A stretch of DNA of 64,000 nucleotides from Edaphobacter dinghuensis. Lineage in GTDB: Bacteria; Acidobacteriota; Terriglobia; Terriglobales; Acidobacteriaceae. The stretch covers positions 727,149 to 791,148 of the forward strand of contig NZ_BMGT01000003.1 of assembly GCF_014640335.1 (NCBI RefSeq), given 5' to 3'. Below are positions 7,676-47,163 of the stretch, piece after piece. The translations under genes were made by a program, and so were the position numbers. The notes under the pieces were generated by a model. That model saw only the letters and a program-made list of their open reading frames with translations. It ran no database searches and was not told the DNA's origin. The stretch's first letter is position 1. Each line of letters starts with the position of its first letter.

Positions 7676-9789
7676 CGCGAGCTCTTGGCAACCAGGACAG
7701 CAATGCCCTGTGCCGGAAGGATAATGGTGGTTTGTGAAGGCGCAACGATGAGTGTGGCCTGATGCAGGAGATCTGTGTACGCGGCCGGAAGAGTCATCTG
7801 TCGCGGCTTGCGGGCGTGATTGATCATGATGAGGACTGTACGATCTCCGTTGGCAGATCTACGGGTGCATAATTCGACGTCATCGGGAATCTGCTGTGTG
7901 GCGTGCAGGTCAGCAGCCTTAGCGAGAATGGATGCGAGCAGGTTATCGTCGGGAAGCGTGCCGAGATAGGCGATTGTGCCTCGGCCAATGTGCCGCGTAA
8001 GCATGGCGGGTTGCTGGTCGAGCCATCCTGCGGGGTCGTGATAGGTCAGATCAGTGTGCGTCTCGGGAGAACTGGCGGTAAGCGCTTCAGCCCAGATGTC
8101 GCTGGTGCCTGATCCCGCGCTACCGGTGAGTTTAGGGGCAGGTCTTTGCGGTGCCAACGCATAATATTGCTCGACCTTGCCTCCAAGTGCGGCGGCCAAC
8201 GGGCCGGGTTGGCGCTGAGGGTTCAGGGCGTTGTATTGGTCCTTCATGCCGGAGCGTGGGCCGAGCAGCAGATGGCCGCCTTGTTGAACGTACGCAAGCA
8301 ACCTGGCGGCGAGAGCATCATCGATGACATTGAGCGAGGGAGCTAGCAGGAGTTTGTACTGCGAGAGCGAGCCTGGTTGGGTGGGATCAACAATGTCGAT
8401 GGATTGGCCATTGGACTGTGCGAGGCGCGAGAGTGGCTTGTAAAAGCGGAGCAACACCTGTTGCTGGTTATAGAGCACGCTTTGAGGTTGGAAGTCGATG
8501 GCCCAGCGGGAATCATACGTGTGGAGCAGGGCGATGGTGGATTGCGGCGTAGTGTTGGCCAGTGCAGCTCGCGTGCGAGCAAAGTCTTCTCCTAGTTGCT
8601 GAAGCTCGGAGTAAAGCGGAAGCGGCTTGCCGTCGGGGCCGACGATTGCTCCGTGGTATTGCTCCTGCCCATTCAGTGCGGAGCGCCATTGCCAGTAGAG
8701 AATGGCGTCGGCTCCGTGGCCGACAGCCTGCCATGCGAGGGCGCGGGTCTCGCCGGGGTCGAGAGCATTGTTGATGGGAGCCCAGTTTACCGAGGCAGGC
8801 TGGGTTTCCATGATCCAGAAGTTCTGACGACGCCAACCGCGTACAAAATCGTTGAGCATGGCGTTCTTGGGTGCGTCGAGATGACCTTGGCCGACATAGT
8901 CGTCCCACGCGGCGAGGTCGAGGTCGGCGGTGATGGCGTAATGGTCCCAGTTATCGGACCAGGCGAGACCGCCAATGTTTGTGGTAATGAACTGCGAGTG
9001 CGAAATGAGTGGGCGAAGCGCGTCGATCTGATTGCGCTGAAAGCTGCGCCAGGTGGCCGTGACGAAGTGTTTGTGCTCGAGCAGAAGACCAGGGTTGCCA
9101 TGGGTGGACTCAAGAGGAATCTGCGACCAGGTGGTGTAGGTCTGCGACCAGTAGGCGGTAGTCCAGTGGTAATTGAGATTGGAGAGAGTCTTGTATTTAT
9201 TGCGCAGAAATTGCTCGAACTGCGCGCGCGTAGCGGGGTCGAAGCTCTCGTCGGTGTACTCGTTGCCGATCTGCCAGCCGATGACGTTGGGGTTGTGCCC
9301 ATAACGTCGTGCAAGCTGCGCAACGATCTCGAAGCAGAAACGGCGATAGAGCGGATTGGCGTAGTTGAACTGGCGGCGACCTCCGTGCTCGGCGCGATGA
9401 CCGCCTTCGTCGAAGCGCAGCGTCTGCGGATACTTCGTGGTGAGCCATGCGGGCGGAGCATCAGTAGGCGTGCCCAGGACAACGGCAATGTGATGTTTTG
9501 CAGCGAGGGCAATGGCGCGGTCGAGCCATGCGAAGTCATAGTGGCCTTCGGAGGGCTCTTCAGCCGACCATGCGAATTCGCCGATGCGAACAACGTTGAA
9601 GTGAGCCTGCTCCATCAGACTAAGGTCGGCATCCCAGCGCGACTCGGGCCACTGCTCGGGGTACCACGCAGAGCCAAGCAATGGAGCATCAGGCGTGACA
9701 TAGTGCGTAACACCAGACTGCGCCTGCGAAAGAGCGCAGGTAAGCATAGCCGCACCCAGAGCGGTGATGAGGCGAAGGCGCAGCATCAT
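7672..9789 (-). CDS. Beta-galactosidase, GH42
   Basis: A predicted exported 705-residue GH42 enzyme cleaving terminal beta-D-galactose (or alpha-L-arabinopyranose). A signal peptide (1-24, ending in LSQAQ) precedes the barrel. Catalytic residues are visible: acid/base Glu177 in GWQIGNEYTDE and nucleophile Glu328 in FWIMETQPASVNW. A trimerisation domain follows (about 415-610, with GGHLLLGPRSGMKDQ), then a small C-terminal sandwich. It overlaps its neighbours by 4 bp at both ends, so the three genes are almost certainly co-translated. It is a tandem paralogue of the next gene upstream. Confidence 0.93.
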   Translation of the reverse strand: MMLRLRLITALGAAMLTCALSQAQSGVTHYVTPDAPLLGSAWYPEQWPESRWDADLSLMEQAHFNVVRIGEFAWSAEEPSEGHYDFAWLDRAIALAAKHHIAVVLGTPTDAPPAWLTTKYPQTLRFDEGGHRAEHGGRRQFNYANPLYRRFCFEIVAQLARRYGHNPNVIGWQIGNEYTDESFDPATRAQFEQFLRNKYKTLSNLNYHWTTAYWSQTYTTWSQIPLESTHGNPGLLLEHKHFVTATWRSFQRNQIDALRPLISHSQFITTNIGGLAWSDNWDHYAITADLDLAAWDDYVGQGHLDAPKNAMLNDFVRGWRRQNFWIMETQPASVNWAPINNALDPGETRALAWQAVGHGADAILYWQWRSALNGQEQYHGAIVGPDGKPLPLYSELQQLGEDFARTRAALANTTPQSTIALLHTYDSRWAIDFQPQSVLYNQQQVLLRFYKPLSRLAQSNGQSIDIVDPTQPGSLSQYKLLLAPSLNVIDDALAARLLAYVQQGGHLLLGPRSGMKDQYNALNPQRQPGPLAAALGGKVEQYYALAPQRPAPKLTGSAGSGTSDIWAEALTASSPETHTDLTYHDPAGWLDQQPAMLTRHIGRGTIAYLGTLPDDNLLASILAKAADLHATQQIPDDVELCTRRSANGDRTVLIMINHARKPRQMTLPAAYTDLLHQATLIVAPSQTTIILPAQGIAVLVAKSSR

Positions 9790-11891
9790 CGCTGCTCCGT
9801 TAGCACCGCTACGCCGTGCGGTGCTAACTCAAGTGTTGTTGCGACAGTTTGAGGAACGAGCAGATTCTGCACGGTTGCCGGTAGCGGAATTTGTTTGGAG
9901 CTGGTGGTGTGGTTGATGAGAATCCACACTGGAGGACGGCCCGAGGCCGAGCGCTGCATCAGCTCAACACCGGACGCCAGATTGGGAAGAATGGGATGGA
10001 CGCCTGCGGATGTGAGAATTTGGTCGACGGCAGAGGCAGTGAGTGTGCGGTCGAGCATCGCACCAATGTAGGTGAGCGTGCCTTTATCTACGGTGTTTTC
10101 GACTGCGGCGGGATGGCCAGCAAGCCAGCCGTTGGAGCCGGTGGCATCGGAGCCGTAAGTGAGAAGGACGCGTGCGCCGGGCGTATCGGGCGTGAGCACC
10201 TCGGCCCAGACAGAGACCGTACCGGAGCCCAGTTCTCCCGAAACCCGTGGTGCGGGGTCTTTGGGGTCGAGAGCGTAATATTGCTCGACGTGTGCTCCTA
10301 GTGCGGCGGCGAGCGGGCCGGGTTGTCGCTGCGTGTTCAAGGCATCGAACTGATCCTTCATGCCGGAGCGCGGACCGATGACGAGATGGCCGCCCTGCTG
10401 AACGTAGCTGAGAAGATGTTGCGCGAGCGCGTTTGAAATAACGTTGAGCGCTGGTGCAAATACCACAGCATAGGAGCTGAGGTCGGCATCGGGCGAGATG
10501 ATATCGATGCTCTGCGCGACGGGGGATGCGGCGCGATAGATATCCAGTACAGCCTCGTCGTAGTCGAAGAGCTTGCTATGTCGTTGAAAGTCGATGGCCC
10601 AGTGTGAGTCGTAGGACTGGAGGATAGCGACGCGGCTATGCGGTGAGGTGCCTGCCAGCGCATTCGAGGCGAGGGCGAATTCGGAACCGATCTGCTGCAC
10701 CTCGCGGTAAACCGGAACAGGGAGTCCGTCTGCGCCGAGAAGTGTGCCGTGATACTGTTCCTGTCCATTCAAAGCAGAACGCCACTGCCAGTAGAGAACA
10801 GCGTCGGCTCCGTGTCCCACGGCCTGCCATGCCATCTCGCGAACGACACCCTGTGCTAGCGGAGCGTTGATCGGGCCCCAATTAACGAAGGATGGTTGTG
10901 TCTCCATAAGCCAGAAGTTGCGCTGCTTGTAGCCGCGAACAAGATCATGCTCGGCTGCGTTGAGAACAGGGTCGAGCTGGCCGTCGGGGAAGTAGTTGTC
11001 CCATGCCGCGATGTCGAGGTTACGGTGCAGAGCATAGTGATCGAAGGTGTTGTTCCAGTGCATGGTGTTGGTAGTGATGAACTGGTGCGAGCTGGAAAAT
11101 GGACGAATGGCATTGATCTGGTTCTGGACATATGAAATCCAGGTGTCGGTGACGAAGTGCTTGTAGTCGAGCAGGAGCGCGGGGTTCTCGTTGCGCGAGT
11201 GAAAAGGAATCTGGTTGAAGTTGTCGTAGGTCTGCGACCAGTAGGTAGTGGTCCAGAGGTTGTTCAGGTTGGCGATGGTCTTGTACTTGTGCGCGAGCCA
11301 AAGATGCCATTGCGCTTTGGCGAACGAATCGAAGGTAGGTGCGCCGATCTCGTTGTCGATCTGCCAGCCGATGACGTTGGGATTATGGCCGTAGCGGCGA
11401 GCCATCTCGCGCGCGATGCGAGCAGCGAAGATGCGATAGCGCGGGCTGGTGCACGAGAACTGCTCGCGGTTGCCATGTTCGGCGCGGTGACCATCTTCTT
11501 CGATGCGCAGCGTATCCGGATATTTTGTCGTAAGCCATGCAGGTGGCGCGGCAGTTGGTGTGCCGATGACGACGGCGATGTGATGCTGGGCGGCGAGGGC
11601 GATGGCACGATCGAGCCATGCGAAGTTGTAGTGGCCTTCGGATGGCTCCATCGTCGACCACGCGAACTCCCCAACACGAGCGACATTGATGTGAGCCTGC
11701 TCCATGAGTGTAAGGTCGATGTTCCAACGCGACTCAGGCCACTGCTCTGGATACCATGCAGTGCCGAGACGAAGAGGCGACGGAGAGAGATTCTGGGCGT
11801 AGAGATGAGCGCAGAGAAGAAGCACACAGAGGATGCGGGAGATGAGACGCAAGGAAGCTCCGCTGAAGATGAGGTCGTTGCTAACCAGCAT
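9786..11891 (-). CDS. Beta-galactosidase, GH42 (tandem paralogue)
   Basis: The first gene of the operon, about 701 residues from the ATG chosen here. An upstream in-frame GTG at 11960 would add 23 residues that do not resemble a signal peptide. From the ATG the N-terminus reads as a signal peptide ending in HLYAQ. The domain order matches the second GH42, with the acid/base Glu in GWQIDNEIGAP and the nucleophile Glu in FWLMETQPSFVNW. Long stretches are identical in protein between the two copies (for example around TAWYPEQWPESRWN and HNPNVIGWQI), showing an ancestral tandem duplication followed by divergence, perhaps in linkage preference. Confidence 0.9.
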   Translation of the reverse strand: MLVSNDLIFSGASLRLISRILCVLLLCAHLYAQNLSPSPLRLGTAWYPEQWPESRWNIDLTLMEQAHINVARVGEFAWSTMEPSEGHYNFAWLDRAIALAAQHHIAVVIGTPTAAPPAWLTTKYPDTLRIEEDGHRAEHGNREQFSCTSPRYRIFAARIAREMARRYGHNPNVIGWQIDNEIGAPTFDSFAKAQWHLWLAHKYKTIANLNNLWTTTYWSQTYDNFNQIPFHSRNENPALLLDYKHFVTDTWISYVQNQINAIRPFSSSHQFITTNTMHWNNTFDHYALHRNLDIAAWDNYFPDGQLDPVLNAAEHDLVRGYKQRNFWLMETQPSFVNWGPINAPLAQGVVREMAWQAVGHGADAVLYWQWRSALNGQEQYHGTLLGADGLPVPVYREVQQIGSEFALASNALAGTSPHSRVAILQSYDSHWAIDFQRHSKLFDYDEAVLDIYRAASPVAQSIDIISPDADLSSYAVVFAPALNVISNALAQHLLSYVQQGGHLVIGPRSGMKDQFDALNTQRQPGPLAAALGAHVEQYYALDPKDPAPRVSGELGSGTVSVWAEVLTPDTPGARVLLTYGSDATGSNGWLAGHPAAVENTVDKGTLTYIGAMLDRTLTASAVDQILTSAGVHPILPNLASGVELMQRSASGRPPVWILINHTTSSKQIPLPATVQNLLVPQTVATTLELAPHGVAVLTEQR

Positions 11892-12110
11892 AGAAGAAGC
11901 TGCACGTCTCTGGCAGTCACGTAAAAGCAGGGTTCCGCTATGCGGTTCCTCGATCAGCACGAAGCTAGAGGGGAGGCGACGATAGAGGTGGAATGCAAGT
12001 CATGCTTTACTTCGCCTGCGAAGTCAGGATAAGTAAAGGTACGCTCACAGCATCTACTGTGAAGGATGGACCGGTCGCGCCGGTCTTGACCAAGAGAGGA
12101 ACTAAAGGAA

Positions 12111-12806
12111 ATGGCGCAGATGCTGGCAATGATTCATACAAGTCCCACGCTGACACCGGTCTTCGGCGCGCTCGCTGCCGCGGAGATGCCGGAGGTTGCA
12201 GTGTTTCACATGGTCGATGAGAGCCTGATCAAGGACACGATCAAGGCGGGACGGCTGCGGGGGCTTACGATTCGCCGGCTTTTGGGGTTGATCGAATCGG
12301 CGGAGAAGGCAGGTGCAGACGCGGTGATGGTGACATGCTCATCGATCGGGCCGGGAGTGGCTTTGGCGCAGAAGTTGTTTGATACGCCTGTCGTTCGCGT
12401 CGACGAGGCCATGGCGGAGAAAGCTGTGCTGATGGGAAGACGCATCGGTGTGGCAGCTACACTAAGGACGACGTTAGAGCCGACGATCGCTTTGTTGCGC
12501 GAAAAGGCGGCAGCGGCGGGTCGTGAGATTGAGATCGTTGAATCGTTAAGCCACGGCGCGTTTGACGCTGTGTTGGCAGGCGATACGAAGACGCATGATC
12601 GTATCTTGAGCGAGTCGCTGATACGGGATATGCGAGGAGTGGATCTGGTGGTGCTGGCGCAGGCTTCCATGGCGAGGGTGGTCAAGGAGATGCCAAAGGG
12701 TGCGATCGAAGCGCCTGTGTTGAGCTCGCCGGAGCTGGCAATGCAGCGCGCCAGCGTGATATTGAAAGACGCGCACAGGCTTGAGGCGGTCGGAGCCAAC
12801 AATTGA
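12111..12806 (+). CDS. Asp/Glu/hydantoin racemase-family protein with a single active-site Cys
   Basis: A cytosolic protein of 231 residues with the Asp/Glu racemase fold. The first catalytic-cysteine motif is present (VTCSSIGPG, about 79-87). Where the classical family has a second Cys, this protein reads LAQASMARV, so two-base racemisation by the usual mechanism is unlikely. Related single-Cys proteins are common near sugar operons, but I know of no assigned reaction. The ATG follows a purine-rich stretch (AAAGGAA). The next gene, an MFS transporter, starts inside its stop codon, so the two are translationally coupled and probably act on the same small acid. Confidence 0.8.
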   Translation: MAQMLAMIHTSPTLTPVFGALAAAEMPEVAVFHMVDESLIKDTIKAGRLRGLTIRRLLGLIESAEKAGADAVMVTCSSIGPGVALAQKLFDTPVVRVDEAMAEKAVLMGRRIGVAATLRTTLEPTIALLREKAAAAGREIEIVESLSHGAFDAVLAGDTKTHDRILSESLIRDMRGVDLVVLAQASMARVVKEMPKGAIEAPVLSSPELAMQRASVILKDAHRLEAVGANN

Positions 12807-14062
12807 AGAAGCGGAATGCAGTGTTGGCGTTGCTGTGTGGCGTTAGCGTCATTATCTTTATGGACCGGTTGGCGATTGCGGTTGCCGAGCCGGGAATTCG
12901 TGCAGATTTAAAGCTCTCTCCCGAGCAATGGGGATGGGTGCTGAGCGCCTACGTGCTCTCGAATGCCTTGTTCGAAATACCGTCGGGTGCGCGGGGAGAC
13001 CGGCGCGGGCATAGGTCCGAGCTGACGCGGATCGCTGTGTGGTGGTCGGCATTTACCGCGGCGACGGGCTGGTGCAGAAGTTTTTTTCAGATGGTCGGTG
13101 CTCGTTTTTTGTTCGGGGTGGGGGCAGCAGGAGCATACCCGAATGCAGCAGGCGTGGTATCGCGGTGGTTCCCGGAGAAGGAGCATGCCCGGGCACAGGG
13201 CTTCATCTGGGCGGCGAGCCGGTTGGGTGCAGCCCTGGCTCCCTTGTTGCTGGTGCCATTAGAGCGGGTCTGGGGATGGAAGGCAATCTTCTGGTTGTTA
13301 GGCGGCTTGGGCGCGCTCTGGGCGGTCGCATGGAGGCAGTGGTTTCGCGATACCCCGGAGGAGATGGAAGGGGTGAGCTCTGGGGAGCTCGAAGAGATTC
13401 GTGCCGGAAGAAAGACAAAGACGACGCATGAAGAGATTCCATGGAAAAGGCTGCTCGCGCTGCCGCAGTTCTGGCTGATTGTGGCAGCCTATTTTTGCTA
13501 TGCGTGGGGCAGTTGGTTTTTCTTCGGATGGTTTACAACGTGGCTGACGCAGGGAGCAGGCTTTACGCTCGGCGAGATGGGTATCTTTGCTTCGTTCCCG
13601 TTCGTGATGGCGATGCTTGGAAATCTTGTCGGTGGCTCACTGAGTGAGCGACTGGTAATGCGTTTGGGCGCTGTTCGAGCGTATCGTCTGGTGACCTCAG
13701 TTTGCTTGGCGGTTGGAGCGATGCTGCTGCTCGAGATGAGCTTGGTGCGGTCGCATGTCGCCATCGTGGCGATATCCTCGGTAGCATTCGGCGTGATGGA
13801 TCTGATGCTGCCTGCGGCGTGGGCGATGTGCATGGGGCTGGGGGGAAAGTTCGGCGGAACGGCGACAGCGGTAATGAATACAAGCGGCAATCTTGGCGGA
13901 TGGCTCTGTGCGCTGCTGTTTGGATACGTGGTGAAAGCAACTGGGAATTACAACCTGCCGTTGCGGGTGGTGGCTGGAATGGTGCTGGTGGCGGCGGCGC
14001 TATTTGCTCGCGTGGATTGCTCGCGCGGATTGGAATATCCCCAAGCGGTATCCAGCGAATAA
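12803..14062 (+). CDS. MFS transporter, anion:cation symporter (ACS)-like
   Basis: A membrane protein of 419 residues with about 12 hydrophobic segments. The N-terminal part (FMDRLAIAVAEPGIRADL, about 18-35) and the loop motif GARGDRRGHR fit the ACS family, which takes up hexuronates, galactarate, phthalate and other organic anions. It starts with TTG overlapping the stop TGA of the racemase-family gene (4 bp), which fixes the start. It ends 4 bp before the convergent kinase gene. Substrate probably a sugar acid, inferred from family and neighbours. Confidence 0.85.
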   Translation: MKKRNAVLALLCGVSVIIFMDRLAIAVAEPGIRADLKLSPEQWGWVLSAYVLSNALFEIPSGARGDRRGHRSELTRIAVWWSAFTAATGWCRSFFQMVGARFLFGVGAAGAYPNAAGVVSRWFPEKEHARAQGFIWAASRLGAALAPLLLVPLERVWGWKAIFWLLGGLGALWAVAWRQWFRDTPEEMEGVSSGELEEIRAGRKTKTTHEEIPWKRLLALPQFWLIVAAYFCYAWGSWFFFGWFTTWLTQGAGFTLGEMGIFASFPFVMAMLGNLVGGSLSERLVMRLGAVRAYRLVTSVCLAVGAMLLLEMSLVRSHVAIVAISSVAFGVMDLMLPAAWAMCMGLGGKFGGTATAVMNTSGNLGGWLCALLFGYVVKATGNYNLPLRVVAGMVLVAAALFARVDCSRGLEYPQAVSSE

Positions 14063-14066: not shown

Positions 14067-15368
14067 TCAGCAAGAGCCGCGAGCGATATGGAAGAAGTCT
14101 TCCGTGCCGATCTGGCCGCCTTTGAGAGTTAGCTCGAGGTAACGTGCGGCTGAGTCAGCGTAGTGAGCGTGGCAGAGCGGAGCGCCGGGCTGAAGACTTG
14201 CCTTCCAAGTCAGAGCGGAGATGCCGAGTTGCTGAACAGCGTGGGAGCTGGTGTCGCCGCCGCAAAGGATGACGCGCGTGACTGGAGTCTGCGCCAGTAG
14301 ACCGTTGAGGAGCTGGCCTAAAGCGATGCCAAGCGACTCGCCTGCGGCCGGCGAGGTGGAAGCGCCGAGAGCAGTGTAGAGGATCGTGTCTTCGCCGCGG
14401 CGCAGGTGGATGCCAGCGGATGCGATAAGTTGATCCCGGTAAGCGATGGAAGTTTCAGCAGCAGAGAGCAGAAGACTGGGATCGATGGGGACACCATGAA
14501 AGCCATGCCCAAGCGCCCAGCGAATCTGTTGCGCGGTGGTCGGCGAGCAGGAACCACTGACGATGAGTAGAGGATTGGCGCGAGCGATGGGTTGAGGCAT
14601 CGGCGGATCGGGGATGAGGTTAGATCCCCGCCATGCAGTGATAAGAGCAGAGGTGAGGCCGGAGCTTGAGGCCGAGAATAGTTGGCGTCGGAGGGCGCGT
14701 TGCCAGAGGATCTCACCGATAACGTTGAGCGAGGCGGGATCGACGGTATCGAAGAAGACGATGCGATGCGCGGCGTTTTGAGCCTCGAGCTCGGAGGTTG
14801 CCGAGGCGAGCGAATCGAGGTGAGCGTGAGCGACGAGACCGATCGGCAGACTCGTTTGTCGCGCGAGGTGATGGCACAAGTTGGGCTCGGTCATAGGTGT
14901 AACCGGATGGTGACTCATGGGATGGCGGTCGATGCGATGGATGTTGCCGTCGGGAGCTGCGGCGAAGAGCTCGCCTTCGAAGACGAAGCGGCGCAGGTGA
15001 GGAGCGCCTACGACGACGGGCACGAAGGCAGGGTCGAACGCGGCGATCCCGAGCTCGATAGCGCGACCGATGCTTCCGTGTTGTGGAGATGAATCGAAGG
15101 TGGAGCAGACCTTGTAGTGCGTGATGGGAGCATGGAACGGGCTGAGCGCGGAGAAGATGGCTGGCAGGTTGGCGGACATCCACTCAGGAGAGCGCGAGCG
15201 ACTGTCGCCTGCTATGCCAAACGCTTGGATGCCGGGAAATCGTTCGAGCTGATTTGCGCTCGGTGGACCGAGAAAGAGGGCGGCGGAGACGCCATTCGAG
15301 GCAAGTTGTTCGAGGACATCGGTCGAGCCGGTGAAGTCGTCGCCGTAATAGGTGTAGAGCAGAGGCAA
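14067..15368 (-). CDS. DUF1537 sugar-acid kinase, resembling 3-oxo-isoapionate kinase (OiaK)
   Basis: A cytosolic ATP-dependent kinase of 433 residues. The N-terminal substrate domain begins with YYGDDFTGSTDVLEQLAS, then THYKVCSTFDSSPQHGSIG (about 102-120). The C-terminal nucleotide domain carries LLIVSGSCSPTTAQQI and LCGGDTSSHAV. The family phosphorylates C4 and C5 sugar acids (D-threonate, D-erythronate, 3-oxo-tetronate, 3-oxo-isoapionate). The DDFTGSTDV...HYKVCSTFDSSP signature together with the adjacent RuBisCO-like gene recalls the kinase of D-apionate catabolism. Start is TTG preceded by AAAGGAC. It is the last gene of the rhamnosidase operon, 29 bp after the RuBisCO-like gene. The exact substrate needs assay. 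Confidence 0.85.
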   Translation of the reverse strand: MPLLYTYYGDDFTGSTDVLEQLASNGVSAALFLGPPSANQLERFPGIQAFGIAGDSRSRSPEWMSANLPAIFSALSPFHAPITHYKVCSTFDSSPQHGSIGRAIELGIAAFDPAFVPVVVGAPHLRRFVFEGELFAAAPDGNIHRIDRHPMSHHPVTPMTEPNLCHHLARQTSLPIGLVAHAHLDSLASATSELEAQNAAHRIVFFDTVDPASLNVIGEILWQRALRRQLFSASSSGLTSALITAWRGSNLIPDPPMPQPIARANPLLIVSGSCSPTTAQQIRWALGHGFHGVPIDPSLLLSAAETSIAYRDQLIASAGIHLRRGEDTILYTALGASTSPAAGESLGIALGQLLNGLLAQTPVTRVILCGGDTSSHAVQQLGISALTWKASLQPGAPLCHAHYADSAARYLELTLKGGQIGTEDFFHIARGSC

Positions 15369-15397
15369 GGGCGCGTGTCCTTTGGTGCCGTTAAGAT

Positions 15398-16681
15398 TTA
15401 GTTGCCGAAGAGTTCAAGCGCAGCAGCCAGCTCGGGGTGAGTCGTCGCATAGGTGTTAAGAGGAATGTCCAAGGTAGCGGCCTCCCATGCCTGCTGAAGG
15501 CTGCGAACACCGGCGACAGGTCCTCCGGGATGGCCCATGATGCCGCCTCCCGCTGCATAGATCAGGTCGGTAGAGTTCAACGCGCGGAAGGTCTCGAGAG
15601 CCTGGCGCGCACTTTGTCCAGAAGAGAAGACGGGCATCACCTCGCAACCCTTGTTGGGTGCAGGGAACATGGGAGTAAGGCAGGCGCGAGCAGAGGCGAT
15701 GACTGAGTCGTCGGACTCGCAGAACTTGTTGCGGAGGCCGTTGACGTGGGTGTGGTCGATGCCAGCAAGCCGCCACAGCTTCTGGAAGGCGACAAAGTTC
15801 ATGCCGAGAGCGGGATAACGGCCAAGCATTCCCCATCCGTTGCGATGGCCATGCACAACGAGTTGCGAGTGAGCACGGAGTGCGGTCATGGCAGGCAAGC
15901 CGATGGAGTTCATCGAGACCATCAGGCAGGTACCGCCTTCGCGTACAAGGTGGTCATGGCGGCGGAGCATCTGGTCGAGTTCGCCGGTGAGGTTGGCGGC
16001 GTACATAATGCGGCGGCCAGTGCGGTCGTGGATCTCGCGCAGAACGCCGAGCACGGCAGAGGTGCGAGCCTCAAAGGGACAAAGTGGACCATCGGACTGA
16101 AGCTCGTCATCCTTAATGAAATCGATGCCTGCTTCCGCGAGGGTGCGAACCTGAGCGGCGGTTTGATCAGCAGTAAGGCCGATGCTGGGCTTGATGATAG
16201 TACCGATGAGAGGACGGTCGTAGACGCCGGTGAACTGGCGAGTTCCGACGACGCCGAACTGCGGCCCTTGGTAGCGATCAAGAAAAGCAGATGGCAATGA
16301 TAGATCGAGCAGCCGCAAGCCGGAGAAGGCTTGGAGCTCTGAAAGATTGCCAGCGACCGTTGCCAGAAGGTTGGGCAGAGATGGGCCAATGTTGTGCAGC
16401 GGCCACGAGAGCGTAACGGTTGCTGTACGGCGGATACCATCCCAGTTCTTCGGCGTGCCGGAGCCGGGGAGAGAAGGAGAGGCGGCGTGCTCGCCCTCGA
16501 CGATACTTTCGACGCGAGCCGCGAACTGTTCGCGGAGCTGATCGGTTTCGCCGGGCACGCGGAGGAAGGTGCCGGTGGATTGCTCGCCGGCCATGGTGGC
16601 GGCGGCCTGCTCGAGAGGAAATGCGGTCTCGATGAAGTACGAGGCGAAGATGCGATCGGGATGAGAGAAGAATGCGGTCAT
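15398..16681 (-). CDS. RuBisCO-like protein (form IV), candidate 3-oxo-isoapionate-4-phosphate decarboxylase/transcarboxylase
   Basis: A cytosolic protein of 427 residues with the RuBisCO large-chain fold. The alpha/beta N-domain (about 1-140) is followed by the barrel: IGTIIKPSIGLT (Lys164), GIDFIKDDEL (carbamate Lys190 with metal ligands Asp192 and Glu193), HGHRNGW (His277/279), HVNGLRNKF (loop 6) and GGGIMGHPGG (phosphate site). Loop 6 lacks the catalytic Lys environment of true RuBisCO, so CO2 fixation is not expected. Proteins of this kind beside DUF1537 kinases are known as OiaC or OiaX, which decarboxylate or split 3-oxo-isoapionate 4-phosphate. Which of the two applies cannot be decided here. 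No small subunit or phosphoribulokinase is present. Confidence 0.88.
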   Translation of the reverse strand: MTAFFSHPDRIFASYFIETAFPLEQAAATMAGEQSTGTFLRVPGETDQLREQFAARVESIVEGEHAASPSLPGSGTPKNWDGIRRTATVTLSWPLHNIGPSLPNLLATVAGNLSELQAFSGLRLLDLSLPSAFLDRYQGPQFGVVGTRQFTGVYDRPLIGTIIKPSIGLTADQTAAQVRTLAEAGIDFIKDDELQSDGPLCPFEARTSAVLGVLREIHDRTGRRIMYAANLTGELDQMLRRHDHLVREGGTCLMVSMNSIGLPAMTALRAHSQLVVHGHRNGWGMLGRYPALGMNFVAFQKLWRLAGIDHTHVNGLRNKFCESDDSVIASARACLTPMFPAPNKGCEVMPVFSSGQSARQALETFRALNSTDLIYAAGGGIMGHPGGPVAGVRSLQQAWEAATLDIPLNTYATTHPELAAALELFGN

Positions 16682-16693: not shown

Positions 16694-18490
16694 TCAGGCT
16701 TTCGAGAAGTAGGAGGTATAGGTTTCGTTGGTAATGGAATATAGAGGAACGATCACAGTCTGATTCCCAGCGTCGTCTTCGACAAAGACCTGCGGGGCGA
16801 TCTGCCTGAGTCCAGAGGGAAGTCGTCGGCGGCCATTGGCAGCTTGATTGGAGCCTTCGATGGCGACATATTGCACAGGACCGCGAAGCAGAGCGACAGT
16901 GTTCGGGTTCTGATCGTCGATGGGCTCGGTGCGGAAGTCCTGCGGGAGGGTAAGCTCAAGGCGATCGCCGCTGTGCCATGTACGGCGGATCGCGGCGAAA
17001 GAGCCTGAGCCTGCATTGAGTGATGTAGGTCTGCTGTTGATCCGAAGTGAGGCAGGGCGGGCGAGCCAAGCAGGCAACCGTAGGTAGAGAGTAAAGGTTG
17101 CGGGATGATCAAGAGTGAGTGAAAGCGTAGCGGTATCGGAGATGGGGAAGTCGGTAGTTTGTTCCACATGAATAACGGCGTCATTGTGTGCGAAGTGGAC
17201 GCGAGATGGAGTGTAGAGAGTAACGTAGAGGCCGTCGGCGGAGGTGAAGTAGAGGTTGAGCGGGTAGTCGGCGACGGTCTGCACGAGCGTACCGGAGCAG
17301 CAAGGCCATTTCTTCGGATAGAAGACCTTTTGTGCCGCAGCGGAGTAGGTGGAGTAGTAGGGATAGTCGCCGTTGGAGTCAGGTGATTTGACCGCGAGAA
17401 TGGCGTTGAAGAGAACACGCTCGAGGTTATCAGCGTGCTCGGTGGAACGAGGTACACCGGTTCGCAGCAGATAGCGAGCGAGCTTGGTCGAGGCGTAGGA
17501 GCCACAGGGAGTCTCGAAGTGGTCGACGGTGGTGGAAAGAGAGCTGCACAACTCACCGCGATGGGGCGTGATGAAGGTCTCATTGGGACCCCAGCCACCG
17601 GAGGCAAACTGCTGGGTAGTAGTCAAAAGTTTGAAGGCGTTGGCCAGCGCATCGCGATACTTGGGGTCTCCAAGCGTAAGGTACGCACTGCCTCCGGAAG
17701 ATAGCGCGATAACGTGGGAGTAAGCGTGCTGGCCGGGAAAGGGATCGGCTCCGCGGGCAAGTGGATTAAAGAGCGCCGCATCGAGCAGGTAGCGCTGTGC
17801 GAGTTCGCGGAAGCGTGGATTGCCGGTGAGCTGTGCAGCCGCAAAGAGGTTTTCGGGCATGACGAAGGGCTCGTCGTAAGGCGGGTCTTTCTTGCCGATA
17901 CGGTCGTGGACCTTGGCAGGCAGCAGAGGCTCGGCTCCGGCGAGCACACGGTTGAGCAGAGGAACTGCGGAGGTGTCACCCGAGAGAGTAGCTGCGTCGA
18001 TAAGTCCGATGAAGTGCTTATCGAGGATATAGCAGGTCCAGAGGTTGGTCTCGGGGCGCAGAATGCTCTGGTTCTTTGGGCCAAGGGTCTCTGCGAAGGA
18101 CGCGACGAGAGTTCGAACCTTGTCACGGCACGATGAGTCACCGGTGGAGGCTCCAATGCGGGCGAGACCGGAGATGTATTGGCCGAGAGAGTGTCCAGGG
18201 ACGAAGCCGTTGAGATCGTACCAGCCGCCCATGTCGGGGCCAGGTGCCGGTAGCCCGGCGCGCTGGCGATAGACCTTGAGCAGGCGGTCGTTGGAGAGCG
18301 AGAGGTAGTGTGCGTGGACGGCGTTGTATTGCTGTGCGAGTGGGCCGCCGGTGAGCTGAACAGCGGTGTAGGGAAGCTCCTGTAGCGGCTCGCGTATAGG
18401 CGCAGGCATGGCCGACAGAAGCGGTCGCGCCACCGAGAGTGCAGTAACGGCTGCGGCTGATTTGACGAAGGTGCGGCGAGTTAATGGCAT
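16694..18490 (-). CDS. GH127-type (DUF1680) glycoside hydrolase, beta-L-arabinofuranosidase-like
   Basis: A 598-residue enzyme with a twin-arginine signal (LTRRTFVKSAAAV) and therefore probably folded before export. The (alpha/alpha)6 barrel shows the zinc and catalytic-cysteine pattern of GH127: HFETPCGSY (Glu326, Cys329) and WPCCSGT (Cys397, Cys398), where one of the paired Cys is the expected nucleophile. GH127 and its relatives include beta-L-arabinofuranosidases and the aceric-acid hydrolase of rhamnogalacturonan II. It follows the GH78 gene by 200 bp and ends 12 bp before the RuBisCO-like gene, so it is likely to share their transcript. The sugar released cannot be told from sequence. 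Confidence 0.87.
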   Translation of the reverse strand: MPLTRRTFVKSAAAVTALSVARPLLSAMPAPIREPLQELPYTAVQLTGGPLAQQYNAVHAHYLSLSNDRLLKVYRQRAGLPAPGPDMGGWYDLNGFVPGHSLGQYISGLARIGASTGDSSCRDKVRTLVASFAETLGPKNQSILRPETNLWTCYILDKHFIGLIDAATLSGDTSAVPLLNRVLAGAEPLLPAKVHDRIGKKDPPYDEPFVMPENLFAAAQLTGNPRFRELAQRYLLDAALFNPLARGADPFPGQHAYSHVIALSSGGSAYLTLGDPKYRDALANAFKLLTTTQQFASGGWGPNETFITPHRGELCSSLSTTVDHFETPCGSYASTKLARYLLRTGVPRSTEHADNLERVLFNAILAVKSPDSNGDYPYYSTYSAAAQKVFYPKKWPCCSGTLVQTVADYPLNLYFTSADGLYVTLYTPSRVHFAHNDAVIHVEQTTDFPISDTATLSLTLDHPATFTLYLRLPAWLARPASLRINSRPTSLNAGSGSFAAIRRTWHSGDRLELTLPQDFRTEPIDDQNPNTVALLRGPVQYVAIEGSNQAANGRRRLPSGLRQIAPQVFVEDDAGNQTVIVPLYSITNETYTSYFSKA

Positions 18491-18690: not shown

Positions 18691-21213
18691 CTACCTGATG
18701 GAAAAGTCGTAGTGACCGGAGTGGGTAAGCCTCTTCGCTTCGGTGTTGTTAGCTCCGGTAGCGGTGGGCAGATAGAGTTCGGCGGACTCGACGCCTTGGG
18801 GCAAGTCAATCGAGAGTGTCTTTGAGTCGAGCGAGAGCCGGATTGCCCCGTGAGGTGTAGCCACGCTGCCGCGGGCATAAGCGAGGCCGAGCAGGTTGGG
18901 GCGAAGCTCGACGGCAGCATAACCGGGAGCCGTGGGACGAATGCCGAGGATGTTTTCACTGATCCACGGAAGCGGACCGGACGACCAGCCGTGAGCGAGA
19001 GAGACGAAGTAGCCGCTCGTGCCGTCGGCCTCAAGCGAGAGGTGGTAGTTGGTCTTGGGCCAGCGCAGATCGTAGGACTCCCAGAAGCTGGTGGCACCTT
19101 CGTCAAGCATGCCGCCCCAGTAATCGCGGAGCCAGTGCAGAGCCTCGCGGGAATGGCCCGTTTGAGACATCGCTTTAATTAGGTAGGCATTGAAGTAGGG
19201 GCTGATCACCTGATCTGTAGGAGAGTCTTGCTTGACCGTAGAAAAGACCTTCGACCATACGGCAGAATCGGCGGCTGGGTCGAGGTTCGTCAACACGGAT
19301 AAGGCATTGAGCTGCCAGGTCTGGCCCACGGTTTGTGTCGCGGGCGAGAGCAGAGCCTCGCGCGCAGCCTCTTGCAACCGGGCGCACTTCTGCTCGTAGA
19401 GCCTCGCGTTCGATTCGTCATTGGCTGCGCGCAGCAGTGCAGGAGCAGCCTGGTAAGCGCGGAGGAACTCGAGAGTCGTACCGATGGCGGTGTCGGGGGT
19501 TGCGCCATACAGACCGGGAGACCAGTCAACGAAGCCCCAGCCCTTGGCGTCTTTCTTCAACAGGCCCGTGGTTGGATCAAGATCGTTGTCCATCGTCTGA
19601 AGCAGACGGAGCAATGCATCGTGCTGGGATTCGACAAAGGCGCGGTCACCTGAGTGCTGGTAAAGAGTCGCCAGTGTGGTGATCCACTGTGCTGTATAGC
19701 CTGTGATGCCGCTTACCGGCTGGTTAGAGCCGGTGATCTCGGCGATATGGGTGAGGGTATCTTCCAATAGCTTCGTGTCACCGAAAGCGGTCAGGATGGT
19801 AGGAGCTTCGACATCGAGGTCGCCTGCCCAGCGGCCGCGATCGCGTTTTGGGGCGTCCCAAATGTCGTCCTGCATGCAGAGGTGGACGGTGTAGGCGGCG
19901 GTCTCCCATATACGGTTCAGGACGGGATCCGAGGATTCAAATGATCCCGCGTACTCTACGGGGTAGACGATGGCCTCTGCATGGATCGAGCGGAAGCTAG
20001 TGGTAGGTACGCCGCGCAGAAAGCGGACTCGAACATAACGAAAGGCAGACTTGGGGCCGCGAGCCACGCCATGAGGTGGAATCGTTAGCAGATTGGTGCC
20101 GAGATAGTTTCCGCCGCGCTGCGTGGTGCTGATGCCGGTGGCGAGTGCTTCTAGCTCAGATTCACCATAGGCGATAGAGACCAGCGTGTCCGTGGATGAC
20201 TCCGACTGGAAGACGATGCGTCCAGCAATCTCGCGTCCGAAGTCGAGCAGGATGCTCGGGGCTTCGGCATCGGTGGGATCCGGCTGGTGAAAGGTGATGG
20301 TAAATGGTGCGCTTGCAGCGGTGCCATGCTGGGTGAGATCGGCAATGTGGTCGAAGCTATCCGCGCCGGGATAGACATGGGTGATCTCGGCTGGGGATAG
20401 AGTGAGAGTGCGAAGCCAGGGGGACATGCCCTGATATCCGGGCCAGCCATACATGCCGGCATCCGCCGACCACTGAAAGAAGTCAATGTTGGATTCGATT
20501 GGGCCGAGAGATTCTACGTGCGGCCAGTTGGAGTCATCGAAGGAGGGCTGCTGCCAGCCGGGGGTAAGGATGGACTCGGAACGCCAGTCCTTATTGGAGA
20601 GGAGAAGCGTATGTGGGTCGGCCTGGCCAAAGGGAGCTGCGACTAATTTAACGGCGAGCACCTCTCCATAGGCGAGCTGCTGGGTGGTTGTGGGGCTTCC
20701 GGCTGTGACGACGCCTTTGCCGCGAACAGCTTCAATGCTGACGACGTTGTCGCCTGTGCGCAGCGCTTTGGTCGCGTCGGTGTGGAAGACGCGGAAGTTA
20801 ATGGGCTGATCGGTGTTGGTGGAGAAATCACCGAGCAGGGTTCCGTTCAGGTAGACACGGGCAGAGCGCGGCCCAGCGATATAGATTGTTCCGCTATTCG
20901 GAATTTTGCTGAGCTTAAAGTGGCCTCGGAAGTAATGGGGAGCGATGCGGCGGTCGATCTCGCTCCAGGGAAATTTGTTGTGGTCATGGCGTTTGGCAGT
21001 CACGTCGCCTGAGGTCCAGATGTACTCCTCGGGGAGTGGGGTGTGGTTGGGGGTGCTGAAGTGCACGTTGCGGGCTGGATCGAGGGGCGTGAGCGCAGAT
21101 GGAGCGATCGTCTGCGATGGCAGCGCAATGGCGCTGGAGAGAAGAGTGCTGATAGCGACAGCGTTTGTTAACCGCGTGATTTGGGTGCGCCGCAGGCAGA
21201 GATTAAAGCTCAT
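18691..21213 (-). CDS. Alpha-L-rhamnosidase, GH78-like
   Basis: A predicted exported enzyme of about 840 residues. A signal segment (about 15-36) precedes two beta-sandwich domains (TIYIAGPRSARVYLNGTLLG near 110-130; LLDFGREIAGRIVF near 325-337) and an (alpha/alpha)6 barrel (about 415-760). The barrel opens with FESSDPVLNRIWETAAYTVHLCMQ-type residues and carries KRDRGRWAGDLDVEA. The Glu of LDVEA aligns with the Glu of the common GH78 motif GDMHPE. A C-terminal sandwich ends the protein. The start is the ATG at 21213; an in-frame TTG lies 6 bp upstream. It is the first gene of the minus-strand operon, facing the hybrid regulator, and is a paralogue of the gene at 43428-45974. Confidence 0.88.
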   Translation of the reverse strand: MSFNLCLRRTQITRLTNAVAISTLLSSAIALPSQTIAPSALTPLDPARNVHFSTPNHTPLPEEYIWTSGDVTAKRHDHNKFPWSEIDRRIAPHYFRGHFKLSKIPNSGTIYIAGPRSARVYLNGTLLGDFSTNTDQPINFRVFHTDATKALRTGDNVVSIEAVRGKGVVTAGSPTTTQQLAYGEVLAVKLVAAPFGQADPHTLLLSNKDWRSESILTPGWQQPSFDDSNWPHVESLGPIESNIDFFQWSADAGMYGWPGYQGMSPWLRTLTLSPAEITHVYPGADSFDHIADLTQHGTAASAPFTITFHQPDPTDAEAPSILLDFGREIAGRIVFQSESSTDTLVSIAYGESELEALATGISTTQRGGNYLGTNLLTIPPHGVARGPKSAFRYVRVRFLRGVPTTSFRSIHAEAIVYPVEYAGSFESSDPVLNRIWETAAYTVHLCMQDDIWDAPKRDRGRWAGDLDVEAPTILTAFGDTKLLEDTLTHIAEITGSNQPVSGITGYTAQWITTLATLYQHSGDRAFVESQHDALLRLLQTMDNDLDPTTGLLKKDAKGWGFVDWSPGLYGATPDTAIGTTLEFLRAYQAAPALLRAANDESNARLYEQKCARLQEAAREALLSPATQTVGQTWQLNALSVLTNLDPAADSAVWSKVFSTVKQDSPTDQVISPYFNAYLIKAMSQTGHSREALHWLRDYWGGMLDEGATSFWESYDLRWPKTNYHLSLEADGTSGYFVSLAHGWSSGPLPWISENILGIRPTAPGYAAVELRPNLLGLAYARGSVATPHGAIRLSLDSKTLSIDLPQGVESAELYLPTATGANNTEAKRLTHSGHYDFSIR

Positions 21214-21247
21214 CGGCAAATCTTAAACGTGAAGTCGGAAATCCAGT

Positions 21248-21332: not shown

Positions 21333-22550
21333 ATGACGATCTCAAACCTGATGCAAGAGGATATGGATGACGAGGTGACGGCTCCGGCTGGAGGACGGAG
21401 AGGAGATCGTAACGAATCGCAGACCGTACTGAGAGCGTGCGACGTTCTGAAGGCCTTTCAGTTTCGCGGCGAGGAGCTTTGCCTCGCCGACGTCACCGAA
21501 CGGACAGGGCTGCCGAAGACCACGGCATTTCGTCTGCTGCGCACGCTGATTCACGGCGGCCTGATCGAGAGGGCTGGCGCCGGTGTATATCGAAACTCCT
21601 TCGGGCCTGTCTCGGCTAAACCTTACCGCATCGGGTTTGCTTCGCAGGGTGGATCGCCGTTTGCGCAGGAGGTGCAGCGCAGTATTGAACTGGCCTGCGC
21701 GCGAGAGAACCTGCAACTGATCCAGGTGGACAATCGCTACTCGGCGCGCGAAGCGTTGCGAAATGCCGATGTATTGATCAAGGAGCATGTGGACCTGGTG
21801 CTGGAGTTCCAGACCTACGAGCGCGTCGCTCCTGTGTTGGCTGCGAAGTTTCTGGAGTCAAATACGCCCGTGATTGCGATCGAGGTTCCTCATCCGGGGG
21901 CGACCTACTTTGGCGCGAACAACTACAAGGCGGGCCTGATTGCGGGGCGCGCATTGGGACGTTGGACTCGAGAGAGCTGGAAGTGTAAACCCGAGCAGGT
22001 GCTACTGCTGGAGCTGCCAATCGCAGGTTCGCTTGTGGAGTTGCGTACAACCGGTTTTGTGGATGGTCTGAGAGCGGAGCTGCCTGAAGTTGGGAATGTG
22101 CCCGCGATTCATCTGAATGGACGTGGCGACTTTGAGCAGGTTCTGGAGACGATGCGCCAGTTTCTGCGGCGATCGCGTGCGAAGCGCACCCTGATCGGCA
22201 CGGTGAACGATATCTGCGCTCTGGCGGCGCTACGGGCGTTCGAAGAGGTTGGAGCAAGCGAAAAGATCGCGATCGTAAGCCAGAACTGTATTCCCGAGGT
22301 GAGGAACGAGTTGCGTCGGCCCGGGACTCGACTGGTCGGTTCGGTAGCTTATTTTCCCGAACGGTATGGAGAGGAGATCATTCCTCTGGCGATGAGCATT
22401 CTGTCGAAGAAGGCGCTGGCCTCGACGGTGTTTGTGAAGCATCAGCTGGTGACTCCGCGGAATGTGGACCTTATCTATCCCCTCGACGATAAAACAATCT
22501 CGGCGGTGAAGTCGAAGGCGAGTCTGCTGCGATCGACTGCCGTGGCGTAG
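21333..22550 (+). CDS. Hybrid regulator: IclR-type winged helix fused to periplasmic-binding-protein-like sugar sensor
   Basis: A cytosolic transcription factor of 405 residues. Residues about 28-85 form an IclR-like winged helix (VLRACDVLKAFQFRGEEL, then DVTERTGLPKTTAFRLLRTL). In place of the usual IclR effector domain there is a type I periplasmic-binding fold of the LacI/RbsB kind (about 95-380): YRIGFASQGGSPFAQEVQRS, ADVLIKEHVDLVLEF, YFGANNYKAGLIAGRALG and NDICALAALRAFEEVG. It would bind a free sugar. It is divergent from the rhamnosidase/RuBisCO-like operon, with two palindromes between, and lies 22 bp before the GH79-like gene, so it probably controls both and itself. A GGAG site precedes the ATG. 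Confidence 0.85.
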   Translation: MTISNLMQEDMDDEVTAPAGGRRGDRNESQTVLRACDVLKAFQFRGEELCLADVTERTGLPKTTAFRLLRTLIHGGLIERAGAGVYRNSFGPVSAKPYRIGFASQGGSPFAQEVQRSIELACARENLQLIQVDNRYSAREALRNADVLIKEHVDLVLEFQTYERVAPVLAAKFLESNTPVIAIEVPHPGATYFGANNYKAGLIAGRALGRWTRESWKCKPEQVLLLELPIAGSLVELRTTGFVDGLRAELPEVGNVPAIHLNGRGDFEQVLETMRQFLRRSRAKRTLIGTVNDICALAALRAFEEVGASEKIAIVSQNCIPEVRNELRRPGTRLVGSVAYFPERYGEEIIPLAMSILSKKALASTVFVKHQLVTPRNVDLIYPLDDKTISAVKSKASLLRSTAVA

Positions 22551-40145: not shown

Positions 40146-40276
40146 GTGGTCTGATGATCTCCGCGGTGCGTAGATGAGTTTATTACTGAAAGTAAATGGC
40201 ACCTAGTGAAAACTCTTTCTTGACAGAAGCATATGGCGCAGGTTGCCATAGATGGCGAGTGCTTGAGGATGGTTTT

Positions 40277-46008: not shown

Positions 46009-47163
46009 TCAGGCAAAGCACGCAGCGTAGATCTGTTCGACGTCATGCCTTGTTAGTTCGCGAGGGTTGTTGCTCAGCAGCCTCTGAACAGTGAGTGCTG
46101 CTTCGGCCAAGTGGGAAATGGAGTTGCGGCCAATGCCATGGTGAGCCAGGTTGGTATCGATGTTGCAGGTACGAGTTAATGCTTCGAGTTGAGCGGCTCC
46201 TGCATAGGCAGTTTCCAACGGAGTCGATTTGAGTTCTGCTCCTAGAGCGAGAGCTACGTCGGCGTGACGCTCAGGAGAGGCAGCAGCATTGAAGCGAAAG
46301 ACCGTCGAAAGAAGAATTGCGTTAGAGAGGCCGTGCGGAATATGGAACTCGCCACCTAACGGATAGGCGAGGGCATGGACAGCAGCGGTGTTGACCGGGC
46401 CGAGGCAGAGCCCTCCATAGAGGCTGGCGAGAGAGAGGCCTTCGCGTGCCTCCGCATCATTACCGTCGTGGGTGGCGCGAGCAAGGAAGCGAGCGCAGAG
46501 GCGAATGCCTTCAAGAGCGTAGAGATCGACAAGAGAATGCGCGTGCTTATTGGTGTATGCCTCGATGCAGTGGGTGAGAGCATCGAGGCCTGTGAAAGCC
46601 GTAACGGCGGGTGGCACGGAGTGAGTAAGTGTTGGATCGATGAAGGTGGCATCGGGAACAAGGCATGGACTGATAACTCCCTTTTTGATCTGCGCTGTTT
46701 CGTCGAGGAGGATGGCGTTGGGTGAGACCTCGCTGCCCGTGCCCGAGGTCGACGGTATGCAAACGAGGTGACAGTTGCGCGAGCGTAGTAGGCCGATGCC
46801 GAAGGTGTCCTCGATGCGCTGCGCGTTATGAAGAAAAGCGGCAAGCAACTTGGCGAGATCGAGCGCGCTACCTCCACCGATGCCGAGAATGCAGGTCGGT
46901 TCTGTGGCGCGAGCGCGCTCGAGCGCAGCGTGGAAAGAAGAGAGAGTAGGCTCGCCGGCTGATGCGCGATCAGAGGTGACGGGAATGCCGGTGGTGGAGA
47001 GTTGTCGCTTGAGGTGATCGATCGTAGAGTGCAGCGAGGCAGAGTAAACGATGTGGATGCGAGGCTGCGGCAACGCGCTCAGGTAATCGAGCGCGTTTGT
47101 CAAACAGCCGCTTCCGAAGACGAGGCGGTTGGGTTGCAGCAAGGTGATGGTGCGCATCGGCAT
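46009..47163 (-). CDS. Iron-containing alcohol dehydrogenase
   Basis: A cytosolic NAD(P)-dependent oxidoreductase of 384 residues, group III alcohol dehydrogenase. The nucleotide-binding motif is GIGGGSALDLAK (about 94-105). All four metal ligands are present: Asp194 and His198 in GLDALTHCIEAY, His263 in AAVHALAYPLGG and His277 in FHIPHG. Relatives reduce lactaldehyde to propanediol (FucO), maleylacetate or short aldehydes. It starts 2 bp after the stop of the HpcH/HpaI aldolase gene, so the two are probably co-translated, and the pairing suggests it handles the aldehyde product of that aldolase. Confidence 0.9.
   Translation of the reverse strand: MPMRTITLLQPNRLVFGSGCLTNALDYLSALPQPRIHIVYSASLHSTIDHLKRQLSTTGIPVTSDRASAGEPTLSSFHAALERARATEPTCILGIGGGSALDLAKLLAAFLHNAQRIEDTFGIGLLRSRNCHLVCIPSTSGTGSEVSPNAILLDETAQIKKGVISPCLVPDATFIDPTLTHSVPPAVTAFTGLDALTHCIEAYTNKHAHSLVDLYALEGIRLCARFLARATHDGNDAEAREGLSLASLYGGLCLGPVNTAAVHALAYPLGGEFHIPHGLSNAILLSTVFRFNAAASPERHADVALALGAELKSTPLETAYAGAAQLEALTRTCNIDTNLAHHGIGRNSISHLAEAALTVQRLLSNNPRELTRHDVEQIYAACFA

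Follow-up and report, generated by a model that had tools for sequence, protein, structure and literature searches.

The 64,000-nucleotide stretch of the Edaphobacter dinghuensis genome analyzed here (hereafter the window; contig NZ_BMGT01000003.1 of assembly GCF_014640335.1) encodes a RuBisCO-like protein (RLP) and a kinase of the DUF1537, or four-carbon acid sugar kinase, family that resembles the 3-oxo-isoapionate kinase OiaK. Both are open frames on the same strand separated by 29 bp (Table 1), the kinase starting at a TTG as set by the gene-calling tool. Coordinates and Pfam domains bear out the pairing proposed by an earlier model-made reading of the letters (the first-pass annotation), and the two signatures it named, DDFTGSTDV and HYKVCSTFDSSP, are both present in the kinase translation. 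As it also claimed, the pair is joined on the same strand to genes for exported glycoside hydrolases (GH) of the GH127 and GH78 types, an association that recurs across phyla. On the opposite strand, the gene for a major facilitator superfamily (MFS) transporter overlaps by 4 bp the gene for a protein of the Asp/Glu-racemase fold, forming a two-gene operon (12111-14062) that is convergent with the kinase gene and lies 4 bp beyond its end. The source genome (4.5 Mb, 9 contigs, 99.97% complete) contains a single match to PF00016, which is the RLP.

Table 1. Genes of the window that are discussed in the text, with positions relative to the window.
Feature	Position	Strand	Remarks
RLP	15398-16681	-	427 aa; Pfam RuBisCO_large (215 bits) and RuBisCO_large_N (38 bits)
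DUF1537 family protein, OiaK-like	14067-15368	-	433 aa; Pfam SBD_N (168 bits) and NBD_C (105 bits)
GH127/146-type hydrolase	16694-18490	-	12 bp upstream of the RLP gene; N-terminus Tat-like by eye
GH78 alpha-L-rhamnosidase-like	18691-21219	-	200 bp upstream of the GH127-type gene
Asp/Glu-racemase-fold protein	12111-12806	+	single catalytic Cys (C76), Gln184 at the second Cys position; recurrent partner
MFS transporter	12803-14062	+	best NCBIfam model a galactonate-type subfamily (217 bits, cut-off 395)
GH29 alpha-L-fucosidase-like	5993-7675	-	profile match
GH42 beta-galactosidase-like	7672-9789	-	profile match
Second GH42-like protein	9786-11960	-	clusters with the other GH42; in NCBIfam a weak GH35 model only
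GH138-like protein	30458-33211	+	matches PDB BPa0997 and NF049878; interpreted as an indicator of rhamnogalacturonan-II breakdown
Regulator, IclR-HTH and periplasmic-binding domains	21333-22550	+	profile match

The active site of the RLP is largely that of RuBisCO. The carbamate lysine (K190) and the metal ligands D192/E193 are kept within the motif KDDE at residues 190-193, as the first-pass annotation had read them. Its further claim, that the loop-6 lysine had been lost to a loop reading NGLRNKF, was wrong: K319 falls in the K334 column when the RLP is aligned with the archaeal RuBisCO 6hun, and this column is a lysine in 94 of 95 aligned rows. Other site residues are E33, N112, K164, H279, R280, H312 and S353. 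In what we take to be the usual RuBisCO numbering, the RLP is RuBisCO-like at 15 of 19 positions (E60, T65, N123, K175, K201, D203, E204, H294, R295, H327, K334, S379, G381, G403 and G404) and differs at four (K177 to Ser, W66 to Phe, T173 to Ile and G380 to Ser). These columns are readable against 6hun from N123 onward; the E60-T65-W66 stretch, which the alignment does not cover, was placed by motif. Of the residues that mark a bona fide RuBisCO (K175, K177, K201, D203, E204, H294 and K334), K177 is replaced by S166 and the others are present.

Two kinds of RLP are known from D-apionate catabolism, OiaX, the 3-oxo-isoapionate-4-phosphate decarboxylase, and OiaT, the transcarboxylase/hydrolase of the same substrate, whose products are 3-phosphoglycerate and glycolate; OiaC is not known to be an RLP. 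In RuBisCO, E60, N123, H327 and S379 serve carboxylation, hydration and C-C cleavage. All four are lost in the five annotated OiaX rows, which have D, G, Q and G or C at these positions, and all four are present here (E33, N112, H312 and S353). They are also kept, together with T65, K175, K201, D203, E204, H294, R295 and K334, in each of the 16 aligned RLPs that share the GH127 context described below. By a criterion of our own, which is unpublished, the RLP retains with its 15 of 19 positions the residue set for carboxyl transfer plus hydrolysis. Because it keeps the carboxylation, hydration and cleavage residues that OiaX lost, the RLP is more likely, on sequence grounds, an OiaT-like transcarboxylase/hydrolase than a decarboxylase. 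Both reactions on 3-oxo-isoapionate-4-phosphate are supported, for RLPs of Agrobacterium radiobacter and Xanthobacter autotrophicus, by the available part of PMC6302742, which does not extend to the names OiaX and OiaT.

Profile scores agree with a position near OiaX and outside it. OiaX (NF042437) is the best NCBIfam model for the RLP, at 444.4 bits against a cut-off of 700, and the likeness includes the RuBisCO fold, the carbamate and metal residues and a DUF1537 kinase nearby. Identity between the RLP and annotated OiaX proteins is about 44%, and among the genomes of 26 close relatives none passes the OiaX cut-off. We therefore rejected OiaX membership, since the score falls below the cut-off and the OiaX residue pattern is absent. 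The methionine-salvage enolase MtnW (acting on 2,3-diketo-5-methylthiopentyl-1-phosphate) was rejected as well, with 141.7 bits against 513.6 for TIGR03332 and 185.3 against 409 for NF007095. The best NCBIfam model for the kinase is OiaK (NF042436), at 415.3 bits against a cut-off of 700 that it does not reach; the kinase of a locus of the apionate type (L126) scores similarly, with 417.5 bits. Thus, of the suggested combination of OiaK with OiaC or OiaX, the nearest families stand, and the name given to the RLP does not, as the cut-off is failed and four catalytic positions differ.

The nearest RLPs are encoded on a Granulicella sp. contig, from a genome placed in the source's own genus (G014), and in Terriglobus albidus, where the GH127-type gene is broken by an in-frame stop (L012, 8072-9982) and the RLP and kinase frames are uninterrupted. 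Among solved structures, the closest is the Burkholderia fungorum RLP 3nwr (50% identity; Z 51.8, root-mean-square deviation 1.8 over 403 residues), compared with a predicted model of the RLP that has a pLDDT of 89. Unlike the RLP of the window, however, 3nwr groups in our tree with the RLPs of loci L119 and L120 rather than with the GH127 group, and its entry title names no function. Together these three form a further clade, found beside a kinase, 48-51% identical to the RLP here and distinct from OiaX and from the ApnO group described below.

To place the pair in its genomic setting, at least 550 related stretches were obtained from one scan, and 90 loci were read by tblastn with a gene panel: two stretches from the source's own genus, the best 80 of the at least 550 stretches and eight plasmid loci. 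As the best 80 are those nearest to the query, this sample does not stand for the whole family. L011 (the same locus as L009), the RLP copies in L092-L117 and, for the tree, RLP rows shorter than 370 aa were dropped. Outside the GH127 group, 68 of 72 loci have a kinase of the family close to the RLP, a count that leaves out the OiaX loci L127 and L128; given this and the number of related stretches, the RLP-kinase pairing is not a matter of chance.

These loci fall into two contexts. In the first, a PF16896 protein, which from its context we take to be the D-apionate oxidoisomerase ApnO (NF042435 was rejected as an ApnO model, being an unrelated dehydratase model), lies beside the pair in 55 of the 72 loci, namely 54 plus L124, where the gene is cut. 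Some of these loci also carry ApsD- and ApnL-like genes; ApnL of L123 scores 899 bits on NF049900 against a cut-off of 750. The non-OiaX RLPs beside the presumed ApnO are 56-67% identical to the RLP of the window, have the same RuBisCO residue set and are probably of the OiaT type. In the second context, found in the window and 15 further loci, a GH127-type gene, the RLP and the kinase lie on one strand in all 16, the direct GH127-RLP order being interrupted in two of the 15 (L015 and L018). In both of these, a gene of an SDR-dehydrogenase cluster (3649-4428 in L015) stands between GH127 and RLP, hinting at an oxidation step in the route. No ApnO was read within any of the 15 further loci, and an MFS gene of the same type is nearby in 13 of the 16.

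In a quick tree built from 95 rows, the 16 RLPs of the GH127 context form one side of a single branch; they come from Acidobacteriota, from sphingomonads and from one other proteobacterial genome (L032). Branch support in this tree is by SH-aLRT only, the root serves for drawing, and PDB2qyg, L129, L126 and L118 have long end branches. L028 and L057, which combine a divergent GH127-type gene with ApnO, lie on the other side of the branch. The GH127 context thus corresponds to a single change in the tree, which precludes testing the association statistically.

Three positions of the RLP best separate the 16 GH127 rows from 53 ApnO rows or lie beside a catalytic residue. Position 114 is S (12 rows) or W (four rows) in the GH127 context versus F or Y beside ApnO; position 229 is A, V or P versus F, C or L; and position 311 is T, V, S or L versus M, I, L or V. 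The predicted model places 229 and 311 in strands of the barrel, and 114 lies two residues away from N112; in archaeal RuBisCO 6hun, position 229 is A and position 114 is F. These columns fit a changed substrate, although kinship of the sequences alone could also yield them. We tried the presence of the racemase-fold gene as the correlate of small residues at 114 and 229, and this prediction failed: L031, L038, L066 and L070 have that gene together with a presumed ApnO and keep F at both positions. The small residues instead track GH127; L021 and L022, in which a racemase-fold or MFS gene and no GH127 was read, are mixed.

Taken together, the locus suggests that a branched-chain sugar acid derived from rhamnogalacturonan-II (RG-II) is catabolized by a route with the RLP-kinase pair as its core, a reading to which we assign a rough probability of 55%. 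As far as sequence tells, the pair would work like OiaK with an OiaT-type RLP. The exported GH127-type enzyme, with GH78, GH42 and GH29 partners, would release the sugar, and the MFS carrier would bring it in as the acid. An isomerase or dehydrogenase, for which the one-Cys racemase-fold protein is a candidate, would convert it to a 2-carboxy-2-hydroxy-3-keto compound, and the kinase would phosphorylate the CH2OH adjoining the ketone. The RLP, Mg-activated through the K190 carbamate, would then catalyze loss of CO2 to give an enediolate, re-addition of CO2 at the neighboring carbon and, as in OiaT, hydrolysis of the intermediate to 3-phosphoglycerate and a small 2-hydroxy acid. The substrate here is probably not D-apiose or D-apionate processed by the known enzymes.

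The main alternative is ordinary D-apiose/D-apionate catabolism, in which the RLP would act as OiaT or OiaX on 3-oxo-isoapionate-4-phosphate, with ApsD, ApnL and ApnO replaced by unrelated enzymes or with apionate or 3-oxo-isoapionate imported by the MFS carrier. Apiose is a constituent of RG-II according to the accessible part of PMC11747546, and the predominance of presumed ApnO genes beside the pair outside the GH127 group speaks for this alternative. Whole-genome searches, covering 14 of the 16 GH127-context loci (all except L015 and L122), point the other way for the source. PF16896 has no match in the source genome, the same search giving matches in 11 of 23 genomes, and ApnL (D-apionate lactonase, NF049900) has none either, with matches in 12 of 20 genomes, five of them above the cut-off. 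Among the 14 GH127-context genomes, PF16896 is without a match in eight, including the source, and present in six, all sphingomonads. ApnL divides these genomes in the same way except for a match in G074, where ApnL reaches 238 bits only and PF16896 has no match, so that both are without a match in the source, G012, G014, G042, G044, G072 and G073. The search for apiosidases (PF13204, GH140) gave one match in the source, of 58 bits against a Pfam threshold of 26.5, to the DUF5060/DUF5605 protein at 28803-30398, compared with 232-386 bits for the best match in each of ten other GH127-context genomes (G014 with 232 bits, seven sphingomonad genomes, G073 and G074); G012, G042 and G072, like the source, have no strong match. 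ApsD, the D-apiose dehydrogenase, was checked only in the neighborhoods of other loci, the Gfo/Idh/MocA family being too broad.

As neither ApnL nor the presumed ApnO has a match and no apiosidase match is strong, the known apiose route looks broken in the source genome, which is 99.97% complete. The D-apionate route named by the first-pass annotation is therefore doubtful here, although six of the 14 related genomes have both PF16896 and ApnL. The absence of the searched apiose enzymes and the differences at positions 114, 229 and 311 likewise set the RLP apart from the OiaT-type proteins beside ApnO, and we consider ordinary apiose catabolism unlikely for the window.

Several observations weigh against a separate RG-II sugar-acid route. 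In all six genomes that have it, the presumed ApnO lies on the same contig as the RLP, 14-27 kb away, and for this reason the pair may simply serve apiose in these sphingomonads, whose RLPs are 71-73% identical to the RLP here and which also carry ApnL and strong apiosidases. The support of 90 for the GH127 grouping is below the SH-aLRT mark of 95. The racemase-fold protein and the MFS transporter also lie beside four ApnO-type loci and are thus not specific to the GH127 context, so that the racemase-fold protein may have a general role in the pathway. It is also conceivable that the GH127-type enzyme is an ordinary beta-L-arabinofuranosidase placed beside the pair by operon convenience. Finally, the tree contains no characterized OiaT sequence.

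A more specific form of the RG-II sugar-acid proposal takes aceric acid (3-C-carboxy-5-deoxy-L-xylose, from RG-II side chain B) as the substrate. On chemical grounds, an aldose-ketose isomerization would convert it to a homologue of 3-oxo-isoapionate in which CHOH-CH3 replaces CH2OH, and the products would be 3-phosphoglycerate and lactate, or 5-deoxypentulose-1-phosphate and CO2. Such a route would run without ApnO, ApnL and ApsD, in keeping with the absence of ApnO and ApnL. It also accords with the GH127-type gene upstream of the RLP in 16 loci, with the MFS gene near 13 of them, with the RG-II marker in the window and with the shift in this clade from F (C, L) to A, V or P at 229 and from F/Y to S/W at 114. 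The bulky W at 114 in four of the 16 rows runs counter to it, as do the failed association of small residues with the racemase-fold gene and the GH127 genes of this kind in the ApnO-type loci L028 and L057. The isomerase, in addition, is only a candidate.

The GH127-type enzyme itself bears on this proposal from both sides. In the parts of PMC5698469 and PMC10850190 available to us, BT1003 is described as an aceric acid hydrolase of the GH127 family, and members of the family also cleave L-arabinofuranose and anhydrogalactose. The enzyme of the window has the expected Zn/Cys site (E326-T-P-C329 with C397 and C398), in a spacing that differs from the E-x-C given in the same part of PMC10850190. 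We predicted a protein of the BT1003 type, and this prediction failed: the aceric acid hydrolase model NF049879 gives 87.6 bits against a cut-off of 950. In profile comparisons, 5opj, which we take to be BT0349, scores 200 bits, the GH127 structure 4qjy 143, 5mqo, presumably BT1003, 116 and HypBA1 53.

The racemase-fold protein is the candidate for the isomerization. Its predicted model matches aspartate and glutamate racemases in fold (Z about 21), but of their two catalytic cysteines only C76 is kept, with Gln184 at the second position in 18 of 18 rows; a one-base, isomerase-like proton shift is possible. We place no weight on the lack of other racemase-family enzymes among the structure matches of this model.

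The substrate may be a branched RG-II sugar acid, for which we slightly favor aceric acid, or apionate reached through other upstream enzymes; taken alone, aceric acid is a tentative and rather improbable assignment. It is also unlikely, though worth naming, that the locus encodes a first aceric-acid route in which GH127 would free the sugar, a one-Cys racemase-fold enzyme or a dehydrogenase would form the 2-carboxy-3-keto compound, an OiaK-like kinase would phosphorylate it, and the RLP would split the product into 3-phosphoglycerate and lactate. In that case, a natural analogue of the six-carbon intermediate of RuBisCO would undergo carboxyl transfer and hydrolysis in the RLP. We found no catabolic route for aceric acid among the open-access papers searched (subscription papers and preprints lay outside the search).

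Alternatively, GH127 and the RLP-kinase pair may have no common substrate, the locus bundling pectin side-chain hydrolysis with a separately fed route for a sugar acid such as 2-carboxy-D-arabinitol (hamamelonate) or a tetronate. According to the accessible part of PMC10971088, the substrates of DUF1537 kinases include several four-carbon acids, and a second DUF1537-PdxA cluster in the window (49584-51823) points to use of such acids by the cell as well. Against this, the GH127-RLP-kinase order is kept over two phyla, and the genes are jointly present or absent in 41 related genomes: a close RLP, GH127 (at least 60% identity) and the racemase-fold protein (at least 60%) co-occur in exactly three (G000, G012 and G014), and the other genomes contain a 47-residue RLP edge fragment (G030), GH127 relatives of at most 45% identity and a 21-bit racemase-fold match (G040). 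The MFS and racemase-fold genes of G014 were missed by gene calling and seen by tblastn, and the racemase-fold count at L015 is limited by a short contig. The RLP, GH127 and racemase-fold genes thus seem to be gained or lost as a unit, and we regard the absence of a common substrate as unlikely.

RG-II is the likely source glycan because a GH138-like gene lies nearby, 14 kb from the RLP-kinase module. Its product scores 512 bits against PDB BPa0997, which we take to be a GH138 family member, and 781 bits on the alpha-galacturonidase model NF049878 (cut-off 1300). GH138 is grouped with RG-II debranching in the portion of PMC7922503 that was available. No GH138-like gene was found in the other module loci read. 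The region resembles the RG-II loci of Bacteroides thetaiotaomicron, partly described in PMC7922503, in combining GH138-like, GH78, GH127-type and GH42 genes; it differs in its RLP and kinase, of which the same portion of PMC7922503 makes no mention, in a GH127 that is not of the BT1003 type and in having no strong GH140. The GH29 gene was rejected as evidence for chain B, since 2-O-methylfucose is reportedly cleaved by GH139 only (PMC12282258, in the part available).

The sphingomonad clusters encode an apiosidase (388 bits to 3kzs/5msy), GH106, GH78 and RhaT. Those of G043, G044 and G067 have GlcD/E/F-like genes, with GlcF above its cut-off and GlcD below; a glycolate oxidase would suit a glycolate-yielding reaction of the OiaT type, and G044 has these genes without a presumed ApnO. 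A 743-aa protein family (cluster 15; L137 1960-4191, minus strand, and relatives) occurs in seven sphingomonad clusters; one copy was searched, and GH139 was rejected as its identity, there being no PDB, Pfam or NCBIfam match.

To our knowledge, few reactions of RuBisCO-like proteins have been assigned so far, and these proteins show which chemistries the RuBisCO fold supports in nature. The clade described here has retained most RuBisCO active-site residues, shows at least partial detachment from the known apiose enzymes and is linked with a pectin-type hydrolase over two phyla, providing a short gene list for a possibly new reaction. Should the substrate be aceric acid, the route would fill a gap in how bacteria complete RG-II breakdown.

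Other genes of the window deserve mention. The regulator with IclR-HTH and periplasmic-binding domains also adjoins the module in three other loci (G012, G014 and L046), and is followed here by a 467-aa protein (22573-23976, plus strand) with an N-terminus that is Tat-like by eye and no Pfam or NCBIfam match at E 0.001. On the minus strand, positions 46009-51823 encode the second DUF1537 kinase, a PdxA-type dehydrogenase and an HpaI/HpcH-type aldolase, along with a sodium-solute-type symporter and an iron-type alcohol dehydrogenase (both by eye), a gene set resembling a four-carbon acid route of the D-threonate/D-erythronate type. The DUF5060/DUF5605 protein with the weak apiosidase-like match (plus strand) directly precedes the GH138-like gene and has relatives of 41% identity in two sphingomonad clusters. 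Within this pectin-type locus, a 670-aa protein (40196-42208, plus strand) that matched nothing in Pfam, NCBIfam or the PDB at the thresholds applied is a possible unassigned carbohydrate enzyme. The gene that overlaps it (42205-43350, plus strand) encodes a BNR_2 protein of the sialidase fold that is 39% identical to the product of L122 19007-20089, beside the RLP cluster of a Croceibacterium plasmid; our guess is that it is an RG-II ulosonic-acid hydrolase.

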